Assembly: GCA_015055865.1 (NCBI GenBank)
Contig: SVHK01000009.1
Location: 1-45,956 of the forward strand
Direction of reading: 5' to 3'
DNA length: 45,956 nt
From: Clostridiales bacterium
GTDB taxonomy: Bacteria > Bacillota > Clostridia > Christensenellales > Borkfalkiaceae
Below the pieces are notes generated by a model that ran no database searches, was not told the DNA's origin, and saw nothing but the letters and a program-made list of their open reading frames with translations. A program made the translations under genes and the position numbers. Positions 33,682 through 45,949 of this stretch are shown piece by piece. Position 1 is the first letter of the stretch. Each line of letters starts with the position of its first letter.

Positions 33682-34618
33682 TTAAAAAATCAAACACAGC
33701 GTTGCCATCGCTAACGTCAACGCAAAATAGCCGTATGAAATTTTACTTTCCGAATATCCGCTTTGTTGAAGATGATGATGAAAGGGCGACATTTTAAAAA
33801 TCCTTTTTCCGCCCGTCGCTTTAAAATAAACGACTTGAGCAATCACCGACACGCCCGAAATAACGAACGCAATCCCCACGAGCGCAATATATAAAAACCC
33901 GCCTGAGAATACTCCTACGCAAGCAGCGAAACCGCCGAGCGACAACGAACCCGTATCCCCCATAAACACGCTTGCCGGCGACGAATTAAAAACGAGATAC
34001 CCTACCAACGCGCCCGTAATGGCGATAGAAGTTATAGACAATCCAATTTCGCTCTCCGACAAAATAACGCCAAAAAACAGAAAGAACGGCGCGCATACTC
34101 CTGTCGCGAGTCCGTCCAACCCGTCCGTTAAATTCACGCAATTTACGGTTGCCAAAAAGACGAACACGGAAACGGGGATAATCCCCCAAGCTATATCAAA
34201 TTCCGTTTTTAAAAAAGGCAAAGTTATTTTTGTTAATCCTGCTCGCCACGCGTAAACGGAAGCCAAAAACGCTACCAAGACTTGAAAGATTATTTTTTGC
34301 TTCGCCGTCAACCCTAAATTTTCTTTCCGTTTGAGCTTTAAAAAATCGTCCAACAACCCGACGAACATATATGCGAGCCCCACGACGAGCGTAACCAAAG
34401 TCGTTCGCGACAAATTCGGCAAAAACAAGAAAGTCGATATAACGCTCGCCAAGATAAAAGCAAGTCCGCCCATCGTCGGCGTTCCGCTCTTTTTTCGATG
34501 TTCTTTTACGTAAGATAAAACGTTTTGCCCTGCTCGCCATTTTTTTAATAAAGGAATGAGTAAAAAACAAAAAACCGACGATAAGACGAAGGAAACTACA
34601 ATGCGTATCTTTTAACAT
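33682..34618 (-). CDS. mraY: Phospho-N-acetylmuramoyl-pentapeptide transferase, 5' end frame-shifted
   Basis: MraY makes lipid I at the membrane. Family motifs are present: DDFLK, NLTDGLDGLA, FMGDTGSLSLGG and HHHLQQSG. The frame is open from 34611, but its first ATG (34473) falls inside the conserved GTPTMGG motif. Homologous sequence continues upstream of that ATG (RIVVSFVL through KKSGTPT). An ATG at 34618, with AAAGGAG upstream, is in the wrong frame by one base. Removing one A from the AAAA run at 34610-34613 would join it perfectly (MLKIRIVV). So either there is a +1 error or real frameshift, a rare non-ATG start, or frameshifting. The gene abuts the recombinase module, whose frame runs into it. 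Confidence 0.85.
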
Positions 34619-35416
34619 TATTCGCTCGTTCTCCTTTAAACGCGACCAATTTATCGAATGACCGCAATATTCGTAATCGGTTGCAATCGACCATACTTTT
34701 TCGGCGTTCCACTTTTTTGCCGAAGTTTTATGTAAGGGTTTTAATCCTAAAACCGTCGTCGCATACGCAGAACGTGTCAATACTCCGTCCGCATTCAGTT
34801 TATCTGCGATCTTGCCACAGGATAAACCTTCGTTTGCTACGTAGTCGTAAATACGTCGAACGATTGACGCTGAATAATTATCAATAATCTCCGTACCGTT
34901 TTCGTCGTAACGATAGCCGTATTTGGGATAATAATTTAAATGCTTAGTTTGCGCGTAATGAATTCTCGCTTGTTTGCACTTTTTTAAAAACTCTTTTCGG
35001 TAATACTCGTCCAAAAAACCGCGGAACAAAATAGACGTATCTTCCTTGTACGATTGACTATCGTACTTATCGTTTAATGAAATAACCCTTATCCCGTGCG
35101 CAGGAAAAACGCATTCCAAATATTCGCCCACTTTACGTAAAGAACGCCCAAGTCTTGATAAATCTTTCAATAAAACGATATTGAATTTTTTTCTTTCCAT
35201 ATCCGTGAGCATTTTTTTCAAAGCCGGACGCTCAAAACTTGCACCGCTATATCCGTCGTCTATATAAATTTCATAAATTTGAAAACGTTGTTCTTGAGCA
35301 AACATTTTTAGCGTAAAAATTTGATTTTCAATACTTTTAGACGTATCTTGAACGCACGTTTTGTTTTCATCTTCTCTAGACAAACGAACGTAAATAGCAA
35401 CCTTATCGCTCCGCAT
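34196..35416 (-). CDS. Large serine recombinase, truncated, open frame reading into mraY
   Basis: The first 256 or so residues form a serine recombinase. A resolvase/invertase domain (1-150) carries the catalytic Ser in YVRLSRED and the SRLGR motif, followed by a Recombinase domain (about 160-256) ending near CGHSINW. After about 34646 the frame is simply mraY read in the wrong frame. The zinc ribbon and coiled coil normally found in large serine recombinases are absent. It overlaps the upstream recombinase by 14 bases. Its 3' end appears lost or exchanged at an integration junction. The 406-residue reading is not a natural protein. Confidence 0.8.
   Translation of the reverse strand: MRSDKVAIYVRLSREDENKTCVQDTSKSIENQIFTLKMFAQEQRFQIYEIYIDDGYSGASFERPALKKMLTDMERKKFNIVLLKDLSRLGRSLRKVGEYLECVFPAHGIRVISLNDKYDSQSYKEDTSILFRGFLDEYYRKEFLKKCKQARIHYAQTKHLNYYPKYGYRYDENGTEIIDNYSASIVRRIYDYVANEGLSCGKIADKLNADGVLTRSAYATTVLGLKPLHKTSAKKWNAEKVWSIATDYEYCGHSINWSRLKENERIMLKDTHCSFLRLIVGFLFFTHSFIKKMASRAKRFILRKRTSKKERNADDGRTCFYLGERYIDFLVFAEFVANDFGYARRGARIYVRRVVGRFFKAQTERKFRVDGEAKNNLSSLGSVFGFRLRVASRINKNNFAFFKNGI
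34596..34649 (-). pseudogene. murF: Possible murF 3' end remnant at the recombinase junction
   Basis: A third frame across the junction reads LVAFKGERANNVKRYAL then stop at 34598-34596, overlapping the mraY start. VxFKGxRA near the end resembles the C-terminus of MurF ligases, and murF is the usual neighbour upstream of mraY. The tail is short, so this is a tentative reading. Confidence 0.35.
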
Positions 35417-37022
35417 CTCCCACCGCCGTTAAAAATTCCATCGGTAATTTGTATCGAATGCGCAAGCTTATTTCTCTTGCTCGAGCACTACCTTTTATCC
35501 AATCGCTACCCACTTCTATTTTATCTATAATCTTTTGTAAGAAATCATATCTTGCCATAGCAAAAACGGGTAGTCTTCGCAAAGCCGTTGGTATATCCGC
35601 AACCGTATACTCGCTTGTCCGCTTAACAAAAGCGTAGTTTTGCAATTTTTGTATTTCTTCTTCTAACGTTTCTTTTTCCGTTTTATATTTACTGATTAGA
35701 TTCTCAAAGGTTATATCCGTCAACAAACCTTCCGCGCGTTTTTCAATCAAAAATAAAATTTTTTTATCTACTTTTTCGGCGTTTTCTTTAGCTTTTTTCA
35801 CAGCTCTTTGAATATCTACTAATTTATTTTCACTGCTTATACGTTCTCGAATATCGTATTGTCTTGTATCGATTCCAAATAGCAACGTATTTTTAATCAA
35901 TTCCAACTCTCTCAATAACAACTCGTCCAAATATTTTTTTTGAATAGAATTGCCTTTAGAACAGTTTTTATTATTACAATAATATCTCCGCCCTTGACTT
36001 CCGTTTTTTGCGTTTTTTCTTTGCTCAAACCGTAAAGGTTTTCCGCAATTTTGACAAATTAGCAAGCCCTTATACTCGTTATCTTCGACGAATACCGACC
36101 CTGAGCGATTTTGATGAATTAAAGCGTTCGCTTGTTCCCAAACCTTTAAATCAACGAGGGGTTCGTATCGATTTTCAAAAACGTAGCACTCCTGATTTTT
36201 ACGTCGTTTTTTGTTTTTAAAACTCACGCCTTTCGTCTGCGCCGTTTTATACCTGCCAAGATACGCGTCCTTTATAATAATATCTCTAACCATGCCCGTC
36301 GTCCAAGCCGTGCGCTTTTCTTTCGGCTCAGTTAAAACTTTCGTTTTGTTATAACCGTATTTAATTGCATTAAAAAAACGTGGAACGTAAACCCCTTGTC
36401 GACGAAGAAATTTTGCAACTCTTGACGTAGATCCGTATTCTATATATTTTTGATAAATTAACCGTACTACGTCGGCGGTAACGGGGTCGGGTACTCGTTC
36501 GTACCGTTCGTTATAGGCGTACCCAAAAATAGGGAATACGGTGTTTCTCGGTTCGCCCTTTTTCGCCTTACCGTCTAACGTAAACCTAATTTTCTTAGAT
36601 ATATCTTTCGCATACCATTCGTTGATAATGTTTTTTAGTGGCATAAAATCGCCACTATCTTCATCAATACTGTCGTAATTATCGTTGACCGCAATATATC
36701 TTACGTTATGCTGAGGAAAATATTCTTCTACGTAGTATCCGGCGTGAATATAATTTCGACCGAGACGGGACAAGTCTTTGGTGATTACCATATTGATTTT
36801 CCCCTTTTCGATATCCGTCAACATTCTATTAAAATCCGGACGATTGAAATTCGTGCCCGTATATCCGTCGTCCGCATAAATTTCCACTACTTCCCAGTTT
36901 CTTCGTTGGACGTATTCCACGAGTATTTCTTTTTGCTGAATGATAGATTGACTTTCCTCTCTTCCGTCCTCCTGCGACAATCTACAATACACCCCTACTT
37001 GATAAGCTTGCTCATTCTTCAT
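35403..37022 (-). CDS. Large serine recombinase (site-specific integrase), full length
   Basis: A 539-residue large serine recombinase. The N-terminal catalytic domain holds the nucleophile Ser in YCRLSQED and the SRLGRN motif. A Recombinase domain (about 160-280) and a zinc ribbon (CQNCGKPL then YYCNNKNC, about 335-370) follow, then a coiled coil (about 410-470) and a C-terminal DNA-binding tail. Such enzymes integrate and excise mobile elements at att sites. It is translationally coupled to a 57-residue protein upstream (11-base overlap) and to the truncated recombinase downstream (14-base overlap). Confidence 0.94.
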   Translation of the reverse strand: MKNEQAYQVGVYCRLSQEDGREESQSIIQQKEILVEYVQRRNWEVVEIYADDGYTGTNFNRPDFNRMLTDIEKGKINMVITKDLSRLGRNYIHAGYYVEEYFPQHNVRYIAVNDNYDSIDEDSGDFMPLKNIINEWYAKDISKKIRFTLDGKAKKGEPRNTVFPIFGYAYNERYERVPDPVTADVVRLIYQKYIEYGSTSRVAKFLRRQGVYVPRFFNAIKYGYNKTKVLTEPKEKRTAWTTGMVRDIIIKDAYLGRYKTAQTKGVSFKNKKRRKNQECYVFENRYEPLVDLKVWEQANALIHQNRSGSVFVEDNEYKGLLICQNCGKPLRFEQRKNAKNGSQGRRYYCNNKNCSKGNSIQKKYLDELLLRELELIKNTLLFGIDTRQYDIRERISSENKLVDIQRAVKKAKENAEKVDKKILFLIEKRAEGLLTDITFENLISKYKTEKETLEEEIQKLQNYAFVKRTSEYTVADIPTALRRLPVFAMARYDFLQKIIDKIEVGSDWIKGSARAREISLRIRYKLPMEFLTAVGDAER

Positions 37023-37266: not shown

Positions 37267-37325
37267 TTATTGAGAGAATATCTCGCTTGATATAAATATT
37301 TTTTATTGCTTTATATTTTAATTTA

Positions 37326-37395
37326 CTAAAAAGACCAACGGAAAATTCCCGTTAGCCTTTATATTAAAAAAATCAGACTCCGTTTGGAATCTGAT
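37326..37395 (-). terminator. Tandem terminators of the microcompartment operon
   Basis: First hairpin: arms at 37372-37381 and 37386-37395, one wobble, GTTT loop, seven T on minus. Second hairpin: arms around 37335-37341 and 37349-37355, followed by a T-run on minus. They separate the BMC/ParA operon from the recombinase operon. Confidence 0.85.
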
Positions 37396-37438
37396 AATTT
37401 TTTCATTTAAAAGTTTATACCGTTGCTCTTTTGTTTTA

Positions 37439-37693
37439 TTAAAGCAAGAAATAAGGCATATCTTCGCCAAGCAAACAAGAAGAAAATCTATCCTTCTTTT
37501 TCTTCGCGCACGACTTTTTCGTCGTCTTTTTAGGCGCCGAATTTTTTTGCTCAATCGGCGCGATTAATTTTTCCGTTACTTCTTCCGCAGGCGCGGTAAT
37601 TACGTAACTGTTTTGCATATCCGGAGCATCCGTTTTCACTTTAGAATATCCGTTGTTTTCCACTCTTTTAAGCGAGCTCTTTCCGATTGACAT
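37439..37693 (-). CDS. Small basic ParA-partner protein (candidate BMC positioning adaptor)
   Basis: An 84-residue protein whose start overlaps the 3' end of the parA gene by 26 bases. It begins MSIGKSSLKRV, a short basic peptide of the kind that ParA partners use to stimulate ATPase activity. A polar, probably disordered middle follows. Then comes a Lys-rich stretch (about 54-68, KKTTKKSCAKKKKDR) and a hydrophobic C-terminal tail (CLLGEDMPYFLL). I do not recognise a named family. By position it is analogous to McdB, the small partner of McdA in carboxysome positioning. That function is inference. Confidence 0.72.
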   Translation of the reverse strand: MSIGKSSLKRVENNGYSKVKTDAPDMQNSYVITAPAEEVTEKLIAPIEQKNSAPKKTTKKSCAKKKKDRFSSCLLGEDMPYFLL

Positions 37694-38474
37694 TGTCTAT
37701 AATCTCCTTTGTTAATTGTATATATTCCATAGCGCTCCTGCTCGTCTTTTTAAAATCAACGACAGGACGGCTACTATCTTGTGCCCATTCCACCGTGCTA
37801 TCAACGCGTATGTAGGTATCGAACAATTTAACGCCTTCAAGCGATTGTAACGTTTCAAACGTTTGCTTGAAATATTTTTTTCTTTCATCGGCTTTGGTGA
37901 TTGCTATCCCCAAAATTTGCAACTTGGGATTAATTCTTTGAACTTGATTGCAAAATTCAAACATATTTGCCAAACCGAAAAGTCCCCAAGGGCTAGCTTC
38001 AACGGGAATGATTAAATAGTTTGACGCGCACATAATATTCATTACCCAACCGCCAAGCGTAGGGGGGGAATCTATCAATACGTAATCGTAATACCCAAGC
38101 GCGCAAATTTTTTCTAAGCACTTCGTAAGCACCAATTCTCTTTGCCATTTCGAAAATAAATCAAATTCAATTGAACTCATCAAAGACGACGACGGCACGA
38201 TGTCCAATCCGTCTATGCCCGTATGGGTAATAAAATCAGAAAGGTCTTTTTCTTCTTTTACCGCCGTATGAATTGTCTTGCCGTTTTGGGCAAATTCCAA
38301 CGCCTTTTCTTCATCAAAATAAGAAATGGTCAGGTTCATTTGCATATCGCCGTCAATCATCAGCACCTTATACCCTTCCAACGCCATCGCGCAACCAACG
38401 TTAGAACACGTAGTCGTTTTTCCGCTACCGCCTTTATTGTTTGCAAAAGCTATTACTTTCGTTTTACTCATCAT
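37668..38474 (-). CDS. ParA/MinD-family ATPase, last section of the BMC operon
   Basis: A 268-residue ParA-type ATPase. The deviant Walker A motif is NNKGGSGKTTT with signature Lys14 and Lys19. Walker A-prime is DGDMQMN and Walker B is YVLIDSPP. There is no N-terminal helix-turn-helix, as in small ParA/Soj/McdA proteins that bind DNA nonspecifically. It starts 21 bases after the EutP-like gene with an AAGGA site, and no terminator lies between them. The small partner gene overlaps its end. It could be a plasmid-type or element partition protein, but its place inside the BMC operon favours microcompartment positioning. Confidence 0.88.
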   Translation of the reverse strand: MMSKTKVIAFANNKGGSGKTTTCSNVGCAMALEGYKVLMIDGDMQMNLTISYFDEEKALEFAQNGKTIHTAVKEEKDLSDFITHTGIDGLDIVPSSSLMSSIEFDLFSKWQRELVLTKCLEKICALGYYDYVLIDSPPTLGGWVMNIMCASNYLIIPVEASPWGLFGLANMFEFCNQVQRINPKLQILGIAITKADERKKYFKQTFETLQSLEGVKLFDTYIRVDSTVEWAQDSSRPVVDFKKTSRSAMEYIQLTKEIIDNVNRKELA

Positions 38475-38495
38475 CGTATTCCTTCGTACTTTTCT

Positions 38496-39011
38496 TTACA
38501 ACAACCACGTATCCAAAGTCTTTTGAACGGAACTCACTTGTTTGGTTTGCGGTTTTTTCGTTTTCCTTACCGACTTTTTAGGTTGTTTCTCTTGCAAAAA
38601 CGCAGCCAAGTCCGCAACCCCTTCACCCGTGATAGAACTGACGGGGAATATCTTTTTGCAACCGGCAAGTTGCAACCATCTTCTCACGCGTTCCACGTTT
38701 GCGTCCGGTTTATCTATCCCCGTAATTATACCGATAGTTTCACGGTTCACCATACTCGTTAAGCAAGGCGAAAAAATGGAATAAGGCTCGTTCGCCGACA
38801 GAACCAATCCCACGACGTCCGCTTCATACGCATACAACGCCAACGCGCCACTCGTTTCTCTCCGTTCCGTATATTCGCCGGGCGTATCGATTACCGTATC
38901 TAAATAATTAACGTACTGCGTTTTATAATATTTAATTTCTTCACCGCGCAAAGCCTGCGTTAAAGTAGTCTTTCCAGCAGCCACTCTGCCGAGCAACATT
39001 AATTTTTTCAT
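38496..39011 (-). CDS. EutP/PduV-like small GTPase of the microcompartment
   Basis: A P-loop protein of about 171 residues. G1 is GRVAAGKTT, G3 is DTPGE, and the G4 region reads TGIDKPDA, matching EutP/PduV. The start at 39011 overlaps the upstream shell gene in a TAATG arrangement. After the GTPase core (about 140 residues) there is an unusual Lys-rich linker (KKSVRKTKKPQTK) and a hydrophobic end (VQKTLDTWLL). PduV has been reported to localise to the outside of Pdu compartments and to affect their movement. That fits with the ParA gene next to it. Confidence 0.88.
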   Translation of the reverse strand: MKKLMLLGRVAAGKTTLTQALRGEEIKYYKTQYVNYLDTVIDTPGEYTERRETSGALALYAYEADVVGLVLSANEPYSIFSPCLTSMVNRETIGIITGIDKPDANVERVRRWLQLAGCKKIFPVSSITGEGVADLAAFLQEKQPKKSVRKTKKPQTKQVSSVQKTLDTWLL

Positions 39012-39370
39012 TAGGTTTTCGTCAACTCGCAACAAGTGTAGCCAAGCTTATTGATGAAATATTCGCGAATTGCCATAAAAGCCGATTCAACGGACGAAAC
39101 GCTACCCGTAATAATCAACGTTCCCGTAAATCTATCTACGAACCCGATTTCCGCGCCCGAAGACTTCATTGCAATATCCGCCGCAATCACCGCGCTTTCG
39201 TAAGGAATAACGGTCAATACCCCAATCGCGCTTTTCGAATAATCCGCTTGAGGGTCCAACCCAAGTTTGGTATATAACGTTTCGCCGGGATTTGCGATAA
39301 TATGACAAAGGGTAATTTGTTTTCCTGGAACAAACTCTTGAATAATCGTCATTTTATCTTGTAATTGCAT
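39011..39370 (-). CDS. BMC shell protein, EutS/PduU type (circularly permuted)
   Basis: A 119-residue shell protein with the N-terminal beta-barrel segment IIQEFVPGKQITLCHIIANPGE typical of PduU/EutS (shortened here), followed by a permuted BMC fold. Hexamers of this type have a capped pore. AGGAG precedes the start. It lies between the activase and the GTPase genes, as in many glycyl-radical BMC loci. Confidence 0.93.
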   Translation of the reverse strand: MQLQDKMTIIQEFVPGKQITLCHIIANPGETLYTKLGLDPQADYSKSAIGVLTVIPYESAVIAADIAMKSSGAEIGFVDRFTGTLIITGSVSSVESAFMAIREYFINKLGYTCCELTKT

Positions 39371-39385
39371 ATTATTTTCTCCTAT

Positions 39386-40171
39386 TTAGCCCCCAATTTG
39401 ACATTTAAGACCACTTTCTTGCGCTACGCTTAAAAGATATTCCATCTTTTCTTGAGAAGGTGGCTCAACGCCTTTGAGAGCGTAATTTCTATTTAATCCT
39501 GCATATTTATCTTGCCCTAAGCGATGATAGGGCAACAAATGATGTTCTTCTACGTTAGGTAAGCTTACCGCAAATTTAGAAATTGCTTTAATCTCTTCTG
39601 CGGTATCGTTAAACCCGGGTATAACGGGAGTTCTTATCACTAATTCCACCCCGCTTTGCGCTATTTTTTTAGCGTTTTCCAAAATCAATTCGTTGGGAGC
39701 GTTAGTATATTCCTTATGCTTTGCCGAATCCATATGTTTGATGTCCAACAAATACAAATCTAAATACGGCAAAATTGATTTAATAACGTCAAACGAAGCG
39801 TTTGCCGTGGATTCCACTGCCGTATGTAACCCGTTTTCCTTACACGCACGGAGTAAATCACGCGCAAATTCAGGTTGAGCCAAAATCTCTCCGCCTGATA
39901 ACGTAACCCCACCGCCACTTCTACGATAATACGGCATATCGGAAAGCAATTCCGGCAAAATTTCTTCCACCGTAACGTCTTTTCCTACGATTTTTTCCTT
40001 ACCGTTTTCTTGCATCGTTTGGATTTCGTAGGATTGGGATTCAGGATTACAACACCATGCGCATCGCATATAACAACCTTTAAAAAAGACGATAGAGCGT
40101 ATCCCCGGTCCATCGTGGATTGAGAAACGCTGTATATTAAAAATTCGTCCTTTCGTTTGATATATGCTCAT
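39386..40171 (-). CDS. Glycyl-radical enzyme activating protein (radical SAM)
   Basis: A 261-residue radical SAM enzyme that makes the glycyl radical on the adjacent lyase. The CxxxCxxC motif is Cys33-Cys37-Cys40 (FKGCYMRCAWC), and SGGE follows near residue 92. It is the short form: the ferredoxin-like insert with two extra clusters found in many activases is missing. It lies 31 bases after the glycyl radical enzyme gene. Pairing by position and family is strong. Confidence 0.93.
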   Translation of the reverse strand: MSIYQTKGRIFNIQRFSIHDGPGIRSIVFFKGCYMRCAWCCNPESQSYEIQTMQENGKEKIVGKDVTVEEILPELLSDMPYYRRSGGGVTLSGGEILAQPEFARDLLRACKENGLHTAVESTANASFDVIKSILPYLDLYLLDIKHMDSAKHKEYTNAPNELILENAKKIAQSGVELVIRTPVIPGFNDTAEEIKAISKFAVSLPNVEEHHLLPYHRLGQDKYAGLNRNYALKGVEPPSQEKMEYLLSVAQESGLKCQIGG

Positions 40172-40202: not shown

Positions 40203-42734
40203 TTAAAAACCCTGCTCCGTACGGTTAATGATATCATTTTGCAAAGAACGAGAAAGCGTCGTAAACAATGCGCTATATCCTGCAACTCTTACTACGAGAG
40301 TTTTATATTTTTCAGGGTGTTTTTGCGCGTCGATTAGCGTTTCGCGCGTTACAACGTTAAATTGCATATGCATGCCTTTTTGGTCGAAATACGAACGAAT
40401 AAGCGCTACGAATTTCGTTAAACCCGACATTCCCGAAAGCGCGGACGGATGGAATTTTTGGTTAAGCAACGTACCGTTACTTGCCACGCATTGTTCGAGT
40501 TTTGCAACGGAATTTGCCGTTGCCGTCGGGCCTTTCTTATCTCTACCCGACGCAGGACCGATACCGTCTGCAATCGGCGTATACGCCAATCTTCCGTCCG
40601 GAGTCGCGCCCGTTTGCGCGCCTAAAGGTACGTTTGCCGATACGGGATACAATCCGGCTTGGAATACACCGCCACGGGGATTTTTATATTTTTCTACTTC
40701 CTTGGTGTACGAATTTGCAACGTCGCGAGCAAACATATCCGCTTCGTAAATATCGTTACCGTATTTAGGGCAAGTTTCGTCTATCAAGCGTTTAATTTCT
40801 TGATATCTAGCTTTTTGCGATTCAGTTAACCCTCCGCCCTTTTTAATTTCTTGATAAACGTTACGAACGATTTCTTCGTTAATCGAAACGCCCACTTTAG
40901 CAAGACTAGCAACCACTTCACAAGTAAGTCGTCCCGCAGCCACGCCGTCAAATCCGTAGCCGAAATTCGCTTTTAACGCATCACGAAGCTCCGCTAAGGT
41001 AACTTTTTTCTCTTCAAATACAAGCTGTTTTACAGCCAAGAGCGCGTCGGTATTATTTGCAATACCAAAGCCTTGCGGACCAGTGAAGTTGTAGATTGCC
41101 CCACCTTCTTGCAAAGACTTTCCTCTACCGATACAATCCTCTACCATACAAGATTGGAAAGGCAAAGGACATCTCGTTGCATGCGCCGTATCAATAGCGT
41201 TATTTGCATTTACAAGCAATTTGATAAAAAAGCTTTGTTGCGCTTTATAAGCATCGTAAAATTCTTCAAACGTTTGCATATACGCAACGTCGCCCGTCAT
41301 CGGACCTATTTGAACTCCTTTATCGACGCCATTCGAGAATACCAATTCAAGCGGACGACACATATTAAAAAATGCCGCGTCGTGCCAACCGTCCGTTTTA
41401 CCGCCCTTTTGCGGTTCTACGCAACCAATAATACAGTAATCTCGCGCATCTTCCAACGAAAGACCTCTTGCCATAATCGAAGGAATAATAATTTCGTCGT
41501 TGTAATAAGCAGGTAAACCCGTACCCAATCTAGTCAACGCCGCAGCTTTTACCAACAACGAGTCGGGGGAGCCGTTCCATACGCGAATCGAGATAGATGG
41601 TTGCGGTAAAGGTACGTGCATAGACGCCTCTAAACACATATACGATAAATCGTTCGTTGCGTCTAAACCGTGTATATCCTGACCGCCAACAATTAAATTT
41701 TGGAACATACCGTACCCGGCAAAACCATCCGCGGATACGGCGTCGCGTACTTTATTGATATCGTTGAGTTTTACCCAAATACAATCAATCAACTCTTGCG
41801 CCTGTTCTACCGTAATCACTCCGTTTTCTATATCCTTTTTATAGAACGGATACATATATTGGTCAAAACGACCGGGCGAAATGGAATGTCCGCTAGATTC
41901 TACTTGCAATAATAATTGTACAAACCAAAAAGATTGACACGCTTCGTGGAAATCCCTTGCGCCATATTCAGGCACACGCGTACAATTTTTCGCAATTTTT
42001 TCTAATTCTTCTTTGCGTAAAGCGTCGTTTTCTTCTTTCGCCATCTCCATAGCAAGAGTTGCATAGCGTTTTGCATAACCAATAACCGCTTCACAGCTTT
42101 CTATAACTGCGTATAAGAAGTTTGTTCTACTAACGTATTCGGGGTCGCTAACGTCTAATTTTGACAAAGCCGATTTCGTTTCTTCGATAATACCGCGATA
42201 ACCGATTTGTAACACTTTCTCGTAGTTGACGTTTACGTGCCCAATCCCGTTATAAAAATAATTACCGGGCGTAAAAATAGCGTGTTTCATAAAAGCGTCG
42301 TATGCTTCCGGCGCCATATTTGATTTCGCTAAATCGCTCGTAGTTTTTCCTTTCCAATAAGGGTAAACCGCTCTTAAATCGGCCTTTGTATCTTCGCTAA
42401 TATAAAAAGGGTCTGCCGAGCGCGTAGCTACCGTTTCAAACTCTGCTTCCAACCATTCGTAAGAATATTCAGGAAAGACTTGACAACTTCTCGGCGCAAC
42501 CGTTGCGCTACCGACAATCAATTCACCGTCACGAATAACGATGGGAATATTCTTTAAAATGTGCGCAAACGCAGCGCTACGGCGACGAATAATCGGTAAA
42601 TCTTCCGTAGCTTGATAGCTTTCCGTTATTAAAACGCCACGAGCCGATTCAATTTCAGGCATCTTTGCGTATAAATCGTCTATTAATTTTTCAATCCTTG
42701 CACTCTTTTCTAGAACGAATTTAATAGTTTCCAT
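40203..42734 (-). CDS. Glycyl radical enzyme, probable B12-independent diol dehydratase
   Basis: An 843-residue glycyl radical enzyme. The radical site is Gly819 in RVAGYSA, and the thiyl cysteine is Cys438 in GCVEPQ, with Glu440. From memory, Clostridium butyricum glycerol dehydratase uses His164, His281, Ser282, Cys433, Glu435 and Asp447. Matching residues occur here as His166, His283, Ser284, Cys438, Glu440 and Asp452. This favours 1,2-propanediol or glycerol dehydratase activity over choline TMA-lyase, although GCVEPQ is shared with CutC. GHVNVN has Asn170 where many relatives have Asp. Substrate is not certain. It is the signature enzyme of the compartment. Confidence 0.88.
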   Translation of the reverse strand: METIKFVLEKSARIEKLIDDLYAKMPEIESARGVLITESYQATEDLPIIRRRSAAFAHILKNIPIVIRDGELIVGSATVAPRSCQVFPEYSYEWLEAEFETVATRSADPFYISEDTKADLRAVYPYWKGKTTSDLAKSNMAPEAYDAFMKHAIFTPGNYFYNGIGHVNVNYEKVLQIGYRGIIEETKSALSKLDVSDPEYVSRTNFLYAVIESCEAVIGYAKRYATLAMEMAKEENDALRKEELEKIAKNCTRVPEYGARDFHEACQSFWFVQLLLQVESSGHSISPGRFDQYMYPFYKKDIENGVITVEQAQELIDCIWVKLNDINKVRDAVSADGFAGYGMFQNLIVGGQDIHGLDATNDLSYMCLEASMHVPLPQPSISIRVWNGSPDSLLVKAAALTRLGTGLPAYYNDEIIIPSIMARGLSLEDARDYCIIGCVEPQKGGKTDGWHDAAFFNMCRPLELVFSNGVDKGVQIGPMTGDVAYMQTFEEFYDAYKAQQSFFIKLLVNANNAIDTAHATRCPLPFQSCMVEDCIGRGKSLQEGGAIYNFTGPQGFGIANNTDALLAVKQLVFEEKKVTLAELRDALKANFGYGFDGVAAGRLTCEVVASLAKVGVSINEEIVRNVYQEIKKGGGLTESQKARYQEIKRLIDETCPKYGNDIYEADMFARDVANSYTKEVEKYKNPRGGVFQAGLYPVSANVPLGAQTGATPDGRLAYTPIADGIGPASGRDKKGPTATANSVAKLEQCVASNGTLLNQKFHPSALSGMSGLTKFVALIRSYFDQKGMHMQFNVVTRETLIDAQKHPEKYKTLVVRVAGYSALFTTLSRSLQNDIINRTEQGF

Positions 42735-42751
42735 AACCTACAACCTTTTTA

Positions 42752-43297
42752 TTATATCTGATCCCAAAGTTCTTCGTGCGGCGCTGCTATAATTGAATAA
42801 GAAGAAAGCATACCCGACGTTTTTGCATAGTTTGCGCCCGCTTCTACAGCCGCCGTTACGTCGCCAACTTCACCCGTGAGCATAAATACACCCTTTCCGC
42901 CCATACCACGGGAAACGCGAAGGTCGAAAATCCCGACTTTTGCCGTCTTAACGGCAACGTCTGCCGCTTTAATTGCCGTAGCAGCTGAAAAGGTTTCTAC
43001 CAAGCCCAACGAACCCGTTTTCTCCGAAGTTTGCGTGCCAAACAACGCGGATATTACCTGTTCGTCGATTCTACCCATAACCGACGAATCAATTACGTAA
43101 TTTTCAAATTTTGCGCGAACGTGGTCAACCGCGGCTTGTACGTTCGAGATTGAACCCGTTAAAATAATTTCGTATTTCCCCGGACAAGCAGGATGCGCCG
43201 ATACCATTTCTACACCCGCGCTTTTTAACGCCGCGTCCGTTGCTTCTACGCCTTTGGGAATACTTTTCAGTTCTATGACACCTACCGACTTAAACAT
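42752..43297 (-). CDS. pduT: BMC tandem-domain shell protein, PduT-like (Fe-S)
   Basis: A 181-residue trimer-forming shell protein with two BMC domains (about 4-85 and 96-178). Cys38 in PACPGKYE matches the cysteine that holds a [4Fe-4S] cluster at the trimer axis of PduT. Its start overlaps the end of the PduS gene, and PduS and PduT are thought to pass electrons across the shell. Confidence 0.93.
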   Translation of the reverse strand: MFKSVGVIELKSIPKGVEATDAALKSAGVEMVSAHPACPGKYEIILTGSISNVQAAVDHVRAKFENYVIDSSVMGRIDEQVISALFGTQTSEKTGSLGLVETFSAATAIKAADVAVKTAKVGIFDLRVSRGMGGKGVFMLTGEVGDVTAAVEAGANYAKTSGMLSSYSIIAAPHEELWDQI

Positions 43298-44618
43298 TAT
43301 AATTTACCTTATCTATTCTAATTTTATCGCCATTCTCTATCGTAACAACGCCCGCAATACTTGCATGTTGCGGTATAGACAACCCGTTTGCGCTATCCGC
43401 TATCAAATCGCCTCTATTCACCTTTGAGCCGTCCTTCACTATCGCCACGCTCGGCGCGCCGATATGTTGTCTTAAAGCAATTTCTGCTCGTTCAAAATCT
43501 AAATTCTCGCCTTTAAAAATAGGCAATTTGTCAAATCGAGCAACCCCTAAAACACTCGCCCAACGCTCGGAAGGAATCATACGATATTCGCGCTCCTCCG
43601 ACACGGATACGTCGTCTTTTGCAATAAAGCGCATTCCGTTTTTCGCCAACAAAGTTTTGTATTCGGCAATCACCGCCCGCGGTGAAATGCCTTGACAACA
43701 AGCAAGAGTTTCACAAATCCCGCAACCACAACAAAGCGTAGCGGCAAGCACCATTTCAGGCATAACCTTTGCCGCGCCCTTTGCGGTACGAACCATTTTA
43801 TGAGGCTCTAACGGATAGCCAAGCAATCCTCTTGGACACAAATCCGTACAGCGAGTACACTGACAACACGCCGTTTCAGCTCGCGCAATAGATTTTTTTC
43901 CGTCTAATAACTTACTTTCAACTGCCGCAGAAGTTTTAGGAAGAATCAACAACCCTTTAGTTGTCTTTGTTACAACTGCGACTTGCGGATTTATAATTTT
44001 TCCCATCGAAGGGCCACCGTCTAATACGACGTGGTCTTCGGGGATTGTAATCGAATTTTTTTCAAAAAGCTCGGCAATTGATATTCCTATCGGCACTCTC
44101 GTGACGATTGGATTGGTTATATTACCGCCAATTGTCAGCCATTTCATAGTAACCGGCGCAGAAAATTTAATCGCCGCCGCTATGTTATACAAAGTTTCTA
44201 CGTTATATACAATAACGCCGGCCGTTATCGGCAAATTTCCAGGTCGAACGACTCTACCCGTTGCCTGATAAATTAAACTAATTTCATCGCCCATCGGATA
44301 AACGTTCGGCAATACTTTCAAAACTACTTTTTCAGCAAGCTTTGTTCCATCTACTAATCCTAATCGCTCAGCCGTATGTTCTTTCACACAAAGCAACGCG
44401 CCTGGAATCTCAGCTTGTTGCAAAACTTCTTGAATACCCGCAAGTACCATAGGCATTTCGCGAAGTAACAAAAAATAATCGGTATAGAGCAAAGGTTCGC
44501 ATTCTGCGCCGTTCACGACAAGCAAATCCGCCCCTTGCGCCAATTTTGCGTAAGAGGGAAAACCTGCACCGCCTGCACCTACGATTCCTGCTTCTTTTAA
44601 CTGCTCTTTAAATCCCAT
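43290..44618 (-). CDS. pduS: PduS-like RnfC-domain electron transfer protein
   Basis: A flavo-iron-sulfur protein of about 442 residues. The N-terminus has GAGGAGFPSYAK, the NADH-dehydrogenase 51-kDa/RnfC-like fold. The region around 255-315 has two ferredoxin motifs (CCQCTRCTDLCP and CCGCGICETLAC). A C-terminal SLBB/barrel-sandwich segment follows. It is a candidate for regenerating cofactor inside the compartment, with PduT as shell conduit. The second of two ATG codons (44618) has the better ribosome-binding distance. Confidence 0.93.
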   Translation of the reverse strand: MGFKEQLKEAGIVGAGGAGFPSYAKLAQGADLLVVNGAECEPLLYTDYFLLLREMPMVLAGIQEVLQQAEIPGALLCVKEHTAERLGLVDGTKLAEKVVLKVLPNVYPMGDEISLIYQATGRVVRPGNLPITAGVIVYNVETLYNIAAAIKFSAPVTMKWLTIGGNITNPIVTRVPIGISIAELFEKNSITIPEDHVVLDGGPSMGKIINPQVAVVTKTTKGLLILPKTSAAVESKLLDGKKSIARAETACCQCTRCTDLCPRGLLGYPLEPHKMVRTAKGAAKVMPEMVLAATLCCGCGICETLACCQGISPRAVIAEYKTLLAKNGMRFIAKDDVSVSEEREYRMIPSERWASVLGVARFDKLPIFKGENLDFERAEIALRQHIGAPSVAIVKDGSKVNRGDLIADSANGLSIPQHASIAGVVTIENGDKIRIDKVNYNV

Positions 44619-44653
44619 ACCCATTTCCTGTTTTTGTTTATACTAAATATAAA

Positions 44654-44902
44654 TTAGTCTACGATACCGACGATTACCGCATCACACGGCGCATTCGTAT
44701 TATGTAACGCTAAGCGCGCGGAACTACCCGTAGTGATAAGCACGGTTTCGTTAATACCTGCCCCTACGCTATCCACTGCAATCAAATATTCTCCAGTTAA
44801 ATTATTGTTTTTAATAAGCTCTACTTCCATAAATTTCGAGCCAATCAAAGATTCTTGTTTTCTCGTGGAAACAATATTTCCTCTTATAATACCTTTTAAC
44901 AC
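44654..44902 (-). CDS. BMC vertex protein, EutN/CcmL/PduN family
   Basis: An 82-residue pentamer-forming protein that caps the corners of the shell. The start is GTG 44902 behind TAAGGAG; the longer open frame overlaps PduL and is not natural. Conserved pieces are GNIVSTRK near the N-terminus and DSVGAGINETVLITTGSSAR. Confidence 0.93.
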   Translation of the reverse strand: MLKGIIRGNIVSTRKQESLIGSKFMEVELIKNNNLTGEYLIAVDSVGAGINETVLITTGSSARLALHNTNAPCDAVIVGIVD

Positions 44903-44906
44903 TTTT

Positions 44907-45560
44907 TTACTCCTTAACGATCTGCACTTTACAGCCGTTTCCGATTCCCGTAGCATTCGCATCATCTGTATCTACGTGCATTTCCAAACGGAAATCCGGA
45001 TGGACACGAACTTGTACGTCATACCATCTAGTACGACGTGTTCCCGCCACGTCTACGATGACAAAATCCCCGTCTTTTACGTTGAATTTCATCGCGTCTG
45101 ACGGCGACATATGAATATGTCTATTCGCAATTATACAACCTTCTGCTAAAGATACTACTCCTTTAGGACCGATAATTGTAATACCAGCCGAACCAGTCAA
45201 ATTCCCCGATTCACGTACAGGAGGTTTTACTTTTAATACGTAAGAATCCGTCTTTGAAATTTCTACTTGAGACTTATTTCTCAACGGTCCTAATACGCGT
45301 ACGTTTTCAATTGGACGCAAAGAAGGACCGATAATTGTCAGTAATTCTTTGCACGCGTATTGTCCAGGCTGTGATAAGTCTTTGAAAGGAGTTAATTCGT
45401 ATCCTTCCCCAAACAGCGTTTCCAAATCAGCTTTATTAAGATGAATATGTCGATTAGATACCCCTACCGGTACGTCCTTGCCTACTGCAACCCCGTCCCC
45501 GTCTATATCTGCAAGAATTTTTTTGACTATTTCCGCAATTTGCGCGTTTGAAATTTCCAT
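44907..45560 (-). CDS. pduL: Microcompartment phosphotransacylase PduL
   Basis: A 217-residue phosphate propanoyl/acyltransferase, unrelated to Pta, that makes acyl phosphate and recycles CoA in the compartment. Two HxH zinc motifs are seen: NRHIHL and NRHIHMS. The first 19 residues (MEISNAQIAEIVKKILADI) form an amphipathic helix with a short linker after it, matching an encapsulation peptide. AAAGGA precedes the start. Confidence 0.95.
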   Translation of the reverse strand: MEISNAQIAEIVKKILADIDGDGVAVGKDVPVGVSNRHIHLNKADLETLFGEGYELTPFKDLSQPGQYACKELLTIIGPSLRPIENVRVLGPLRNKSQVEISKTDSYVLKVKPPVRESGNLTGSAGITIIGPKGVVSLAEGCIIANRHIHMSPSDAMKFNVKDGDFVIVDVAGTRRTRWYDVQVRVHPDFRLEMHVDTDDANATGIGNGCKVQIVKE

Positions 45561-45673: not shown

Positions 45674-45949
45674 TTATTTAATGCTGGGAAGAAGTTTTTC
45701 AACGTCTGCGTGAGGTCTAGGAATTACGTGCGTTGCGATTACTTCGCCAAGCGACGTTGCTGCTGCAGAACCTGCTTCTACTGCTGCCTTTACTGCGCCT
45801 ACGTCACCTCTTACCATTACGCTTACCAAACCGCTACCGATCTTTTCGCTACCGATAAGTACTACGTTTGCTGCCTTTACCATTGCATCCGCTGCTTCGA
45901 TTGCTGCTACAAGACCTCTCGTTTCTACCATGCCTAATGCTTCCATCAT
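45674..45949 (-). CDS. BMC-H hexameric shell protein, PduA/PduJ-like
   Basis: A 91-residue single BMC-domain protein ([20 protein letters not shown], then [22 protein letters not shown]). The KIGSG loop lines the hexamer pore in PduA. It is the main shell tile and the first gene of the operon visible here. Two adjacent ATG codons are possible starts; the ribosome-binding site is mostly outside the window. More operon genes probably lie beyond the right edge. Confidence 0.95.

Follow-up and report, generated by a model that had tools for sequence, protein, structure and literature searches.

What does a ParA-family ATPase do at the end of a bacterial microcompartment (BMC) operon? The active positioning of metabolosomes is an open question, and the ATPase and small partner protein described here belong to a family that addresses it. 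In the publications covered by our search, McdAB has been shown only for carboxysomes, and Salmonella Pdu, the one metabolosome tested, was not moved by ParA-type systems (PMC12866334; published work is cited throughout from excerpts). We put at roughly 0.8 the probability that the ATPase and its partner are devoted, much like their carboxysome counterparts, to positioning a microcompartment of GRM5-like type (rhamnose/fucose, 1,2-propanediol).

The operon and its organelle

The window, that is the whole stretch of 45,956 nucleotides that was analysed, is one entire contig (G000:C27) of a source genome of 1.43 Mb. Read from the contig end inwards, its minus strand carries the following features in order.

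45674..45949, minus strand: BMC-H shell protein, at the contig end (PF00936, 2.2e-29)
44907..45560, minus strand: PduL phosphotransacylase (PF06130, 7.7e-77)
44654..44908, minus strand: EutN/CcmL-type shell vertex protein (PF03319, 3.2e-26); the ORF is listed up to 44965 and 44657-44908 is the part scanned
43290..44624, minus strand: PduS/RnfC-like electron carrier (Complex1_51K, RnfC_N, Fer4_17)
42752..43297, minus strand: PduT-like tandem BMC shell protein (two BMC domains; TIGR02526 at 109 bits, under the cut-off of 250)
40203..42734, minus strand: glycyl radical enzyme (GRE), nearest to diol dehydratase (PFL-like and Gly_radical; PDB 5i2a/5i2g at 1218 bits, next best 999.5)
39386..40171, minus strand: glycyl radical enzyme activase (Radical_SAM and Fer4_12 only, no PF00037 ferredoxin insert seen; TIGR02494 above cut-off)
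39011..39370, minus strand: EutS-like BMC shell protein (PF00936, 5e-12; NF012012 at 111.8 bits, under the cut-off of 123)
38496..39017, minus strand: EutP/PduV-type BMC GTPase (PF10662, 1.5e-50; TIGR02528 above cut-off); the start is taken as the ATG at 39017, the ORF list giving a TTG at 39035
37668..38474, minus strand: ParA-family ATPase (McdA-like), 268 aa, with deviant Walker A KGGSGKT and signature lysine (Pfam AAA_31, 1.3e-50)
37439..37693, minus strand: partner (McdB-like), 84 aa, with N-terminal MSIGKSSLKRV, Lys-rich linker and C-terminal GEDMPYFLL (no Pfam, NCBIfam or PHROGs family)
37318..37402, minus strand: tandem intrinsic terminators at the operon end (folding z -5.1 and -5.5; one of the two also in the terminator scan)

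The preliminary description had placed the ParA and an overlapping basic protein of 84 residues on the BMC transcript, and its coordinates, spacing and tandem terminators all proved correct. The parA start follows the GTPase stop (38496) after a gap of 21 bases, the first 26 bases of the partner gene coincide with the last ones of parA, and a Shine-Dalgarno-like AAAGGAG can be read upstream of the partner ATG. Both downstream hairpins are followed by a T run: the one at 37372-37395 (-15.4 kcal/mol, z -5.5) is present in the terminator scan, which returned 15 sites against 10.2 expected in shuffles, and the other, within 37318-37370 (-18.0 kcal/mol, z -5.1), is absent from it. Neither an Rfam scan nor a tRNA scan of the window gave a hit.

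The GRM5 pattern comprises a GRE of the 1,2-propanediol dehydratase type, an activase without ferredoxin insert, and homologues of PduS and PduT (PMC6325248). All four are found in the window, with the PduT model below its cut-off, and from its gene content we read the operon as that of a GRM5-like rhamnose/fucose (1,2-propanediol) microcompartment. In a genome of the same genus (G035) the operon extends further out, to a class II aldolase (PF00596), an aldehyde dehydrogenase, a zinc alcohol dehydrogenase (PF00107/PF08240) and an acetate kinase; the window contig stops before the position that the aldolase and the alcohol dehydrogenase occupy there. An FGGY sugar kinase and a partial match to a GH106 rhamnosidase lie near the operon in G035, and RhaA does so in G005. 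In Lachnospiraceae loci the partner is followed by an L-rhamnose mutarotase (L077, 11139-11798, Pfam rhaM; L076, 11148-11795, assigned by eye), which ties the pair to rhamnose metabolism even without a BMC gene within 10 kb.

The ATPase and its partner

The best solved relatives of the window ParA are Soj (6iub, 2.9e-25) and McdA (6noo, 2.5e-13). Short peptide patterns retrieved 82 related ParAs, and the 80 loci retained (53-83% identity) thus favour ParAs that keep those peptides. The motif KGGSGK is kept in at least 95% of 83 aligned ParA sequences, the window among them, and the ATPase core is conserved. The closest loci belong to metagenome-assembled genomes (MAGs) of Clostridia, mostly from the guts of deer, sheep, goat, yak and rabbit. 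In a tree built without carboxysome McdA and without L134, the set separates with full support from ten other ParAs of the same order. The window ParA is unlikely to be the chromosomal Soj of its genus, because 18 of the 37 genus genomes, which as MAGs are incomplete, lack it.

A partner of this kind lies directly after parA in 74 of the 80 loci. It follows a fixed plan, with an N-terminal GKxxIxR helix, a variable middle and a C-terminal (L/M)Px(Y/F/W)LL. A six-frame scan of the 80 loci (1.35 Mb) for both ends jointly returned 73 matches, all of them at a partner start straight after parA and none elsewhere. Arginine 10 is present in 74/74 partners and K5 in 72/74; among the 73 complete proteins a proline occupies position -5 in every case and residue -3 is Tyr in 59, Phe in 5, Trp in 5 and His in 4 (Phe in the window), K5, the proline and the aromatic residue being partly built into the search pattern and R10 not. 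The last ten residues include an acidic one in 67 of the 73. The window partner holds 14 K, 2 R, 4 D and 6 E, with a computed pI of 9.4. The linkers of the 41 partners of the closest set average 72% K/A/P/T/S/E/Q, a figure of composition alone. Certain lineages have a ParB-type fold in place of the linker; their partners match ParB_N but none of the HTH families, and carry the shell-type tail at the C-terminus. The A2 structure model has a mean pLDDT of 69 and is confident only at about residues 26-119.

Both ends of the partner appear to fit features described for McdB proteins. The McdA-binding helix of McdB is N-terminal and includes a critical lysine among the first 20 residues (PMC12204374), and K5, I/L8 and R10 of the partner fall within the same first dozen residues; putative McdB-like proteins of GRM and PDU compartments carry Y/F in their last five residues (PMC11321042). 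With alpha-McdAB of the Halothiobacillus neapolitanus carboxysome, the pair shares a ParA-family ATPase, a small partner encoded immediately downstream, N-terminal lysines and an aromatic residue near the C-terminus. The two systems differ in their cargo, the window pair being encoded with glycyl-radical-type (GRM5-like) metabolosome genes, and in the C-terminal tryptophan, which is invariant in alpha-McdB and through which McdB reaches carboxysomes (PMC11321042), whereas the window partner has Phe and 59 of 73 relatives have Tyr. In addition, the window ParA matches Soj with a better score than any of the McdA structures (6non-6nop).

Other likenesses have been published. The putative McdB-like proteins that PMC11321042 describes near GRM and PDU operons, compared here by description only, resemble our family in a Y/F among the last five residues, in neighbouring acidic residues and in the association with a GRM BMC; the window partner, the product of the last gene of its BMC operon and ending in PYFLL, shows these features of the non-carboxysome McdB-like group. 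The excerpt of that paper does not mention Lys/Ala or ParB-type middles, or a genome-wide link in trans. ParA was noted among ancillary BMC genes by Axen et al. 2014 (PMC4207490). The proposal of a candidate McdAB-like system for a glycyl-radical BMC is supported by the co-occurrence reported below, and loses its novelty, as putative McdB-like proteins of GRM and PDU microcompartments have already been described (PMC11321042, PMC8262871). In the excerpts covered by our literature search we found no report of a genome-level or strict GRM5 link, of Lys/Ala linkers or of ParB-domain partners of BMC ParAs; the primary analyses of MacCready 2020 and 2021 may contain more. The positioning idea for GRMs is thus already published, and what is new here are the variant features: the genome-level link, the Lys/Ala linkers and the ParB-type middles.

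Association with microcompartment genes

BMC-operon genes lie within 10 kb of parA in 46 of the 80 loci and shell genes in 45, some contigs being too short for a verdict. The ten-gene order BMC-H-PduL-EutN-PduS-PduT-GRE-AE-EutS-PduV-ParA is complete in 31 of the 41 closest loci, on which ground its assembly by chance is rejected; eight others lie on shorter contigs and are partial but ordered, and two are cut at the BMC-H end. The association extends beyond physical linkage. PF00936 was found in 40/40 genomes that carry the remaining loci (L062 is counted in both sets). For the 34 loci without a nearby BMC-operon gene, 33 genomes were searched and all 33 contain it. In G630 more than 400 kb separate the ParA from the closest of the shell matches listed (3 of 10) on its contig, so the link between ParA and shell is not one of operon linkage alone.

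Control samples chosen for relatedness and not for ParA content, each including its own ParA-bearing centre genome, gave the same picture. Among 61 relatives of the window, in which the ParA-positive call is clear-cut (at least 368 bits in the set, 122 for the next ParA), shell genes occur in 20/20 ParA-positive and 5/41 ParA-negative genomes. The corresponding counts are 19/19 versus 2/18 in the genus sample, where co-loss is partly trivial linkage and the MAGs are incomplete, and 3/3 versus 110/388 in a class sample of 391 members. In a family sample of 200 members around Blautia caecimuris (G064) they are 23/23 versus 35/177 (Fisher 1e-14), one of the positives, G529, having just one shell match, a weak one (9.2e-16). 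The P values are overstated because related genomes are not independent; the direction is the same in every sample. The co-occurrence of pair and BMC loci, proposed in the preliminary description as a check, is strong both in cis and by genome. The 35 ParA-negative family genomes with shell genes indicate that many BMCs manage without ParA.

Two local variations were seen. G009, of the same genus, has two copies of the BMC-ParA-partner arrangement (C12, locus L023, and C16, locus L079), both cut by a contig end and with diverged partners. In three close relatives (L011, L012 and L013) some 600-750 bases separate PduV from ParA, where elsewhere there are usually few.

No recognisable partner follows parA in six of the 80 loci (L048, L050, L053, L065, L073, L082); on the ParA tree L048, L050, L053 and L073 group together in one clade, while L065 and L082 fall with L133 in another. 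The partner pattern was shaped on the 80-locus set and the family sample serves as an independent check, though G064, G082, G087 and G093 were already known. There the partner was counted in 17 of 23 loci, against 13/23 under the strict pattern: those of L197, L189 and L206 were recognised by eye and that of L209 departs from the pattern at the last residue. It is absent after parA in the other six (L194, L196, L199-L201, L205), which are similar loci. Scanning partnerless genomes (five BMC and eight ParA loci) for the C-terminal motif yielded no match. Profile searches of seven such genomes detected no partner elsewhere, with profiles that were weak on their own controls. Profile A1, mostly ParB-type, missed the known Lys-linker partners of controls G064 and G095, and its hits in the partnerless genomes were mostly frames of 280-340 aa that we took for ordinary ParB/Noc; profile A4 found nothing in them and barely detected its own controls. 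In these loci the adaptor is thus missing, unlinked or unrecognised. Several of them lie among rhamnose-type genes, such as an AraC regulator (L201) and rhaM (L205) identified by Pfam and others, including a sugar kinase, by eye; ParA therefore stays with the pathway even there.

Proposed positioning and its alternatives

From the position of K5, I/L8 and R10 in the first dozen residues, together with the GEDMPYFLL end, we propose that ParA works as a ratchet whose cargo would be the organelle; by analogy, McdAB-like positioning appears to be the likeliest mechanism. ATP-bound ParA dimers would coat the nucleoid, and the C-terminal (L/M)Px(aromatic)LL tail of the partner would anchor it to the shell of the organelle. 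Docking of the partner's GKxxIxR helix, at the N-terminus, on ParA would trigger ATP hydrolysis and local ParA release, so that organelles would be drawn along the ParA gradient, spread out and shared at division. The Lys/Ala linker would hold the ends of the partner apart and may contribute a weak contact with DNA. Among the carriers of the family are gut species in culture, its ATPase and partner are defined and two short motifs can be mutated, and the unlinked ParA copies provide a natural comparison.

Where such a partner came from is more speculative. Chromosomal ParA-ParB-parS and Noc systems have HTH and dimerisation domains; none of these was matched in the window partner, which has a shell-type C-terminal tail instead. 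A tentative scenario, which we hold possible rather than probable, is that the family descends from ParB: the DNA-binding and dimerisation parts would have been exchanged for a shell-binding tail and the ParA-activating N-terminal peptide kept. The CTPase-type domain of ParB would persist in some lineages, where it could gate shell loading with nucleotide, and in others, including the window, an H1-like disordered linker would add contact with the nucleoid. The ParB-type partners join DNA partition to organelle positioning, and would show a DNA segregation machine turning into an organelle mover.

The basic linker also invites an explanation without active movement, in which the partner would resemble PhaM or AlgP as a passive tether to the nucleoid or a regulator of condensates, the Lys/Ala/Pro segment binding DNA directly and ParA having a different role, for example in regulating partner assembly or BMC fission. 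PhaM, PhaF and AlgP have a histone-like segment and hold an inclusion on the nucleoid (PMC13052382). Consistent with such a role, the linkers are rich in Lys, Ala, Pro and Thr, 72 of 74 partners are net basic, and the partner of a Blautia locus (L042, from Blautia caecimuris DSM 29492) has weak matches to histone-H1-like families (0.0012 and 0.001), both under cut-off. The partner of a close relative (L003), however, has no such match, and the excerpt of PMC13052382 names no ParA partner for these tethers. The location of the partner after ParA in 74 of 80 loci and the conservation of its N-terminus also argue against passive tethering, and since some lineages have swapped the linker for a ParB-type fold, the linker is not the essential part. 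We regard this explanation as improbable. That the pair controls the assembly of BMCs, their cargo loading or their gene expression, and not their position, with the C-terminal motif as an encapsulation-type peptide, is less probable still. Short conserved tails are known to direct BMC cargo, and parA adjoins PduV, whose role is unsettled (PMC8262871); nevertheless, the anatomy gives no call for a ParA in assembly, and a ParA partnered by an N-terminal activating-type peptide has the design of a positioning system.

The pair could finally be the DNA partition module of an adjacent mobile element, unrelated to the organelle, given that ParA is a partition-family protein and that a pair of ORFs for large serine recombinases (35403-37022 and 34196-35416) is found immediately downstream. 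We consider this very unlikely. The terminators separate the pair from the recombinases, which occur in 0/80 relatives (up to 10 kb on each side) compared with 46/80 for BMC-operon genes; the pair therefore goes with the organelle and not with the recombinases. The window partner has no Pfam domain match, and a scan of viral contigs found no ParA relative. Close homologues mainly beside plasmid or ICE partition genes, which the preliminary description had named as evidence against the idea, were not seen. The ParA has matches in 912 plasmid and 50 phage records, none of which reaches 60% identity; the best-ranked stand at 38.9% and 36.4%, respectively, against 53-83% in the 80 loci. Dedicated positioning of the microcompartment remains the reading that we favour.

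The recombinase ORFs, with weak matches to the Ccr family, are located between the BMC terminators and a mraY-murD-ftsW cluster, and the second is truncated where the mraY frame starts; they represent either an insertion or an assembly junction. In L067, whose ParA is the nearest neighbour of the window ParA in the tree, the genes after the partner are those for a Mur ligase, mraY, murD and ftsW. The MraY proteins of the window (33682-34473) and L067 (10157-10984) are about 39% identical and the ParAs 83%; judged from these sequences, the cell-wall genes look far more diverged between the two than the BMC genes.
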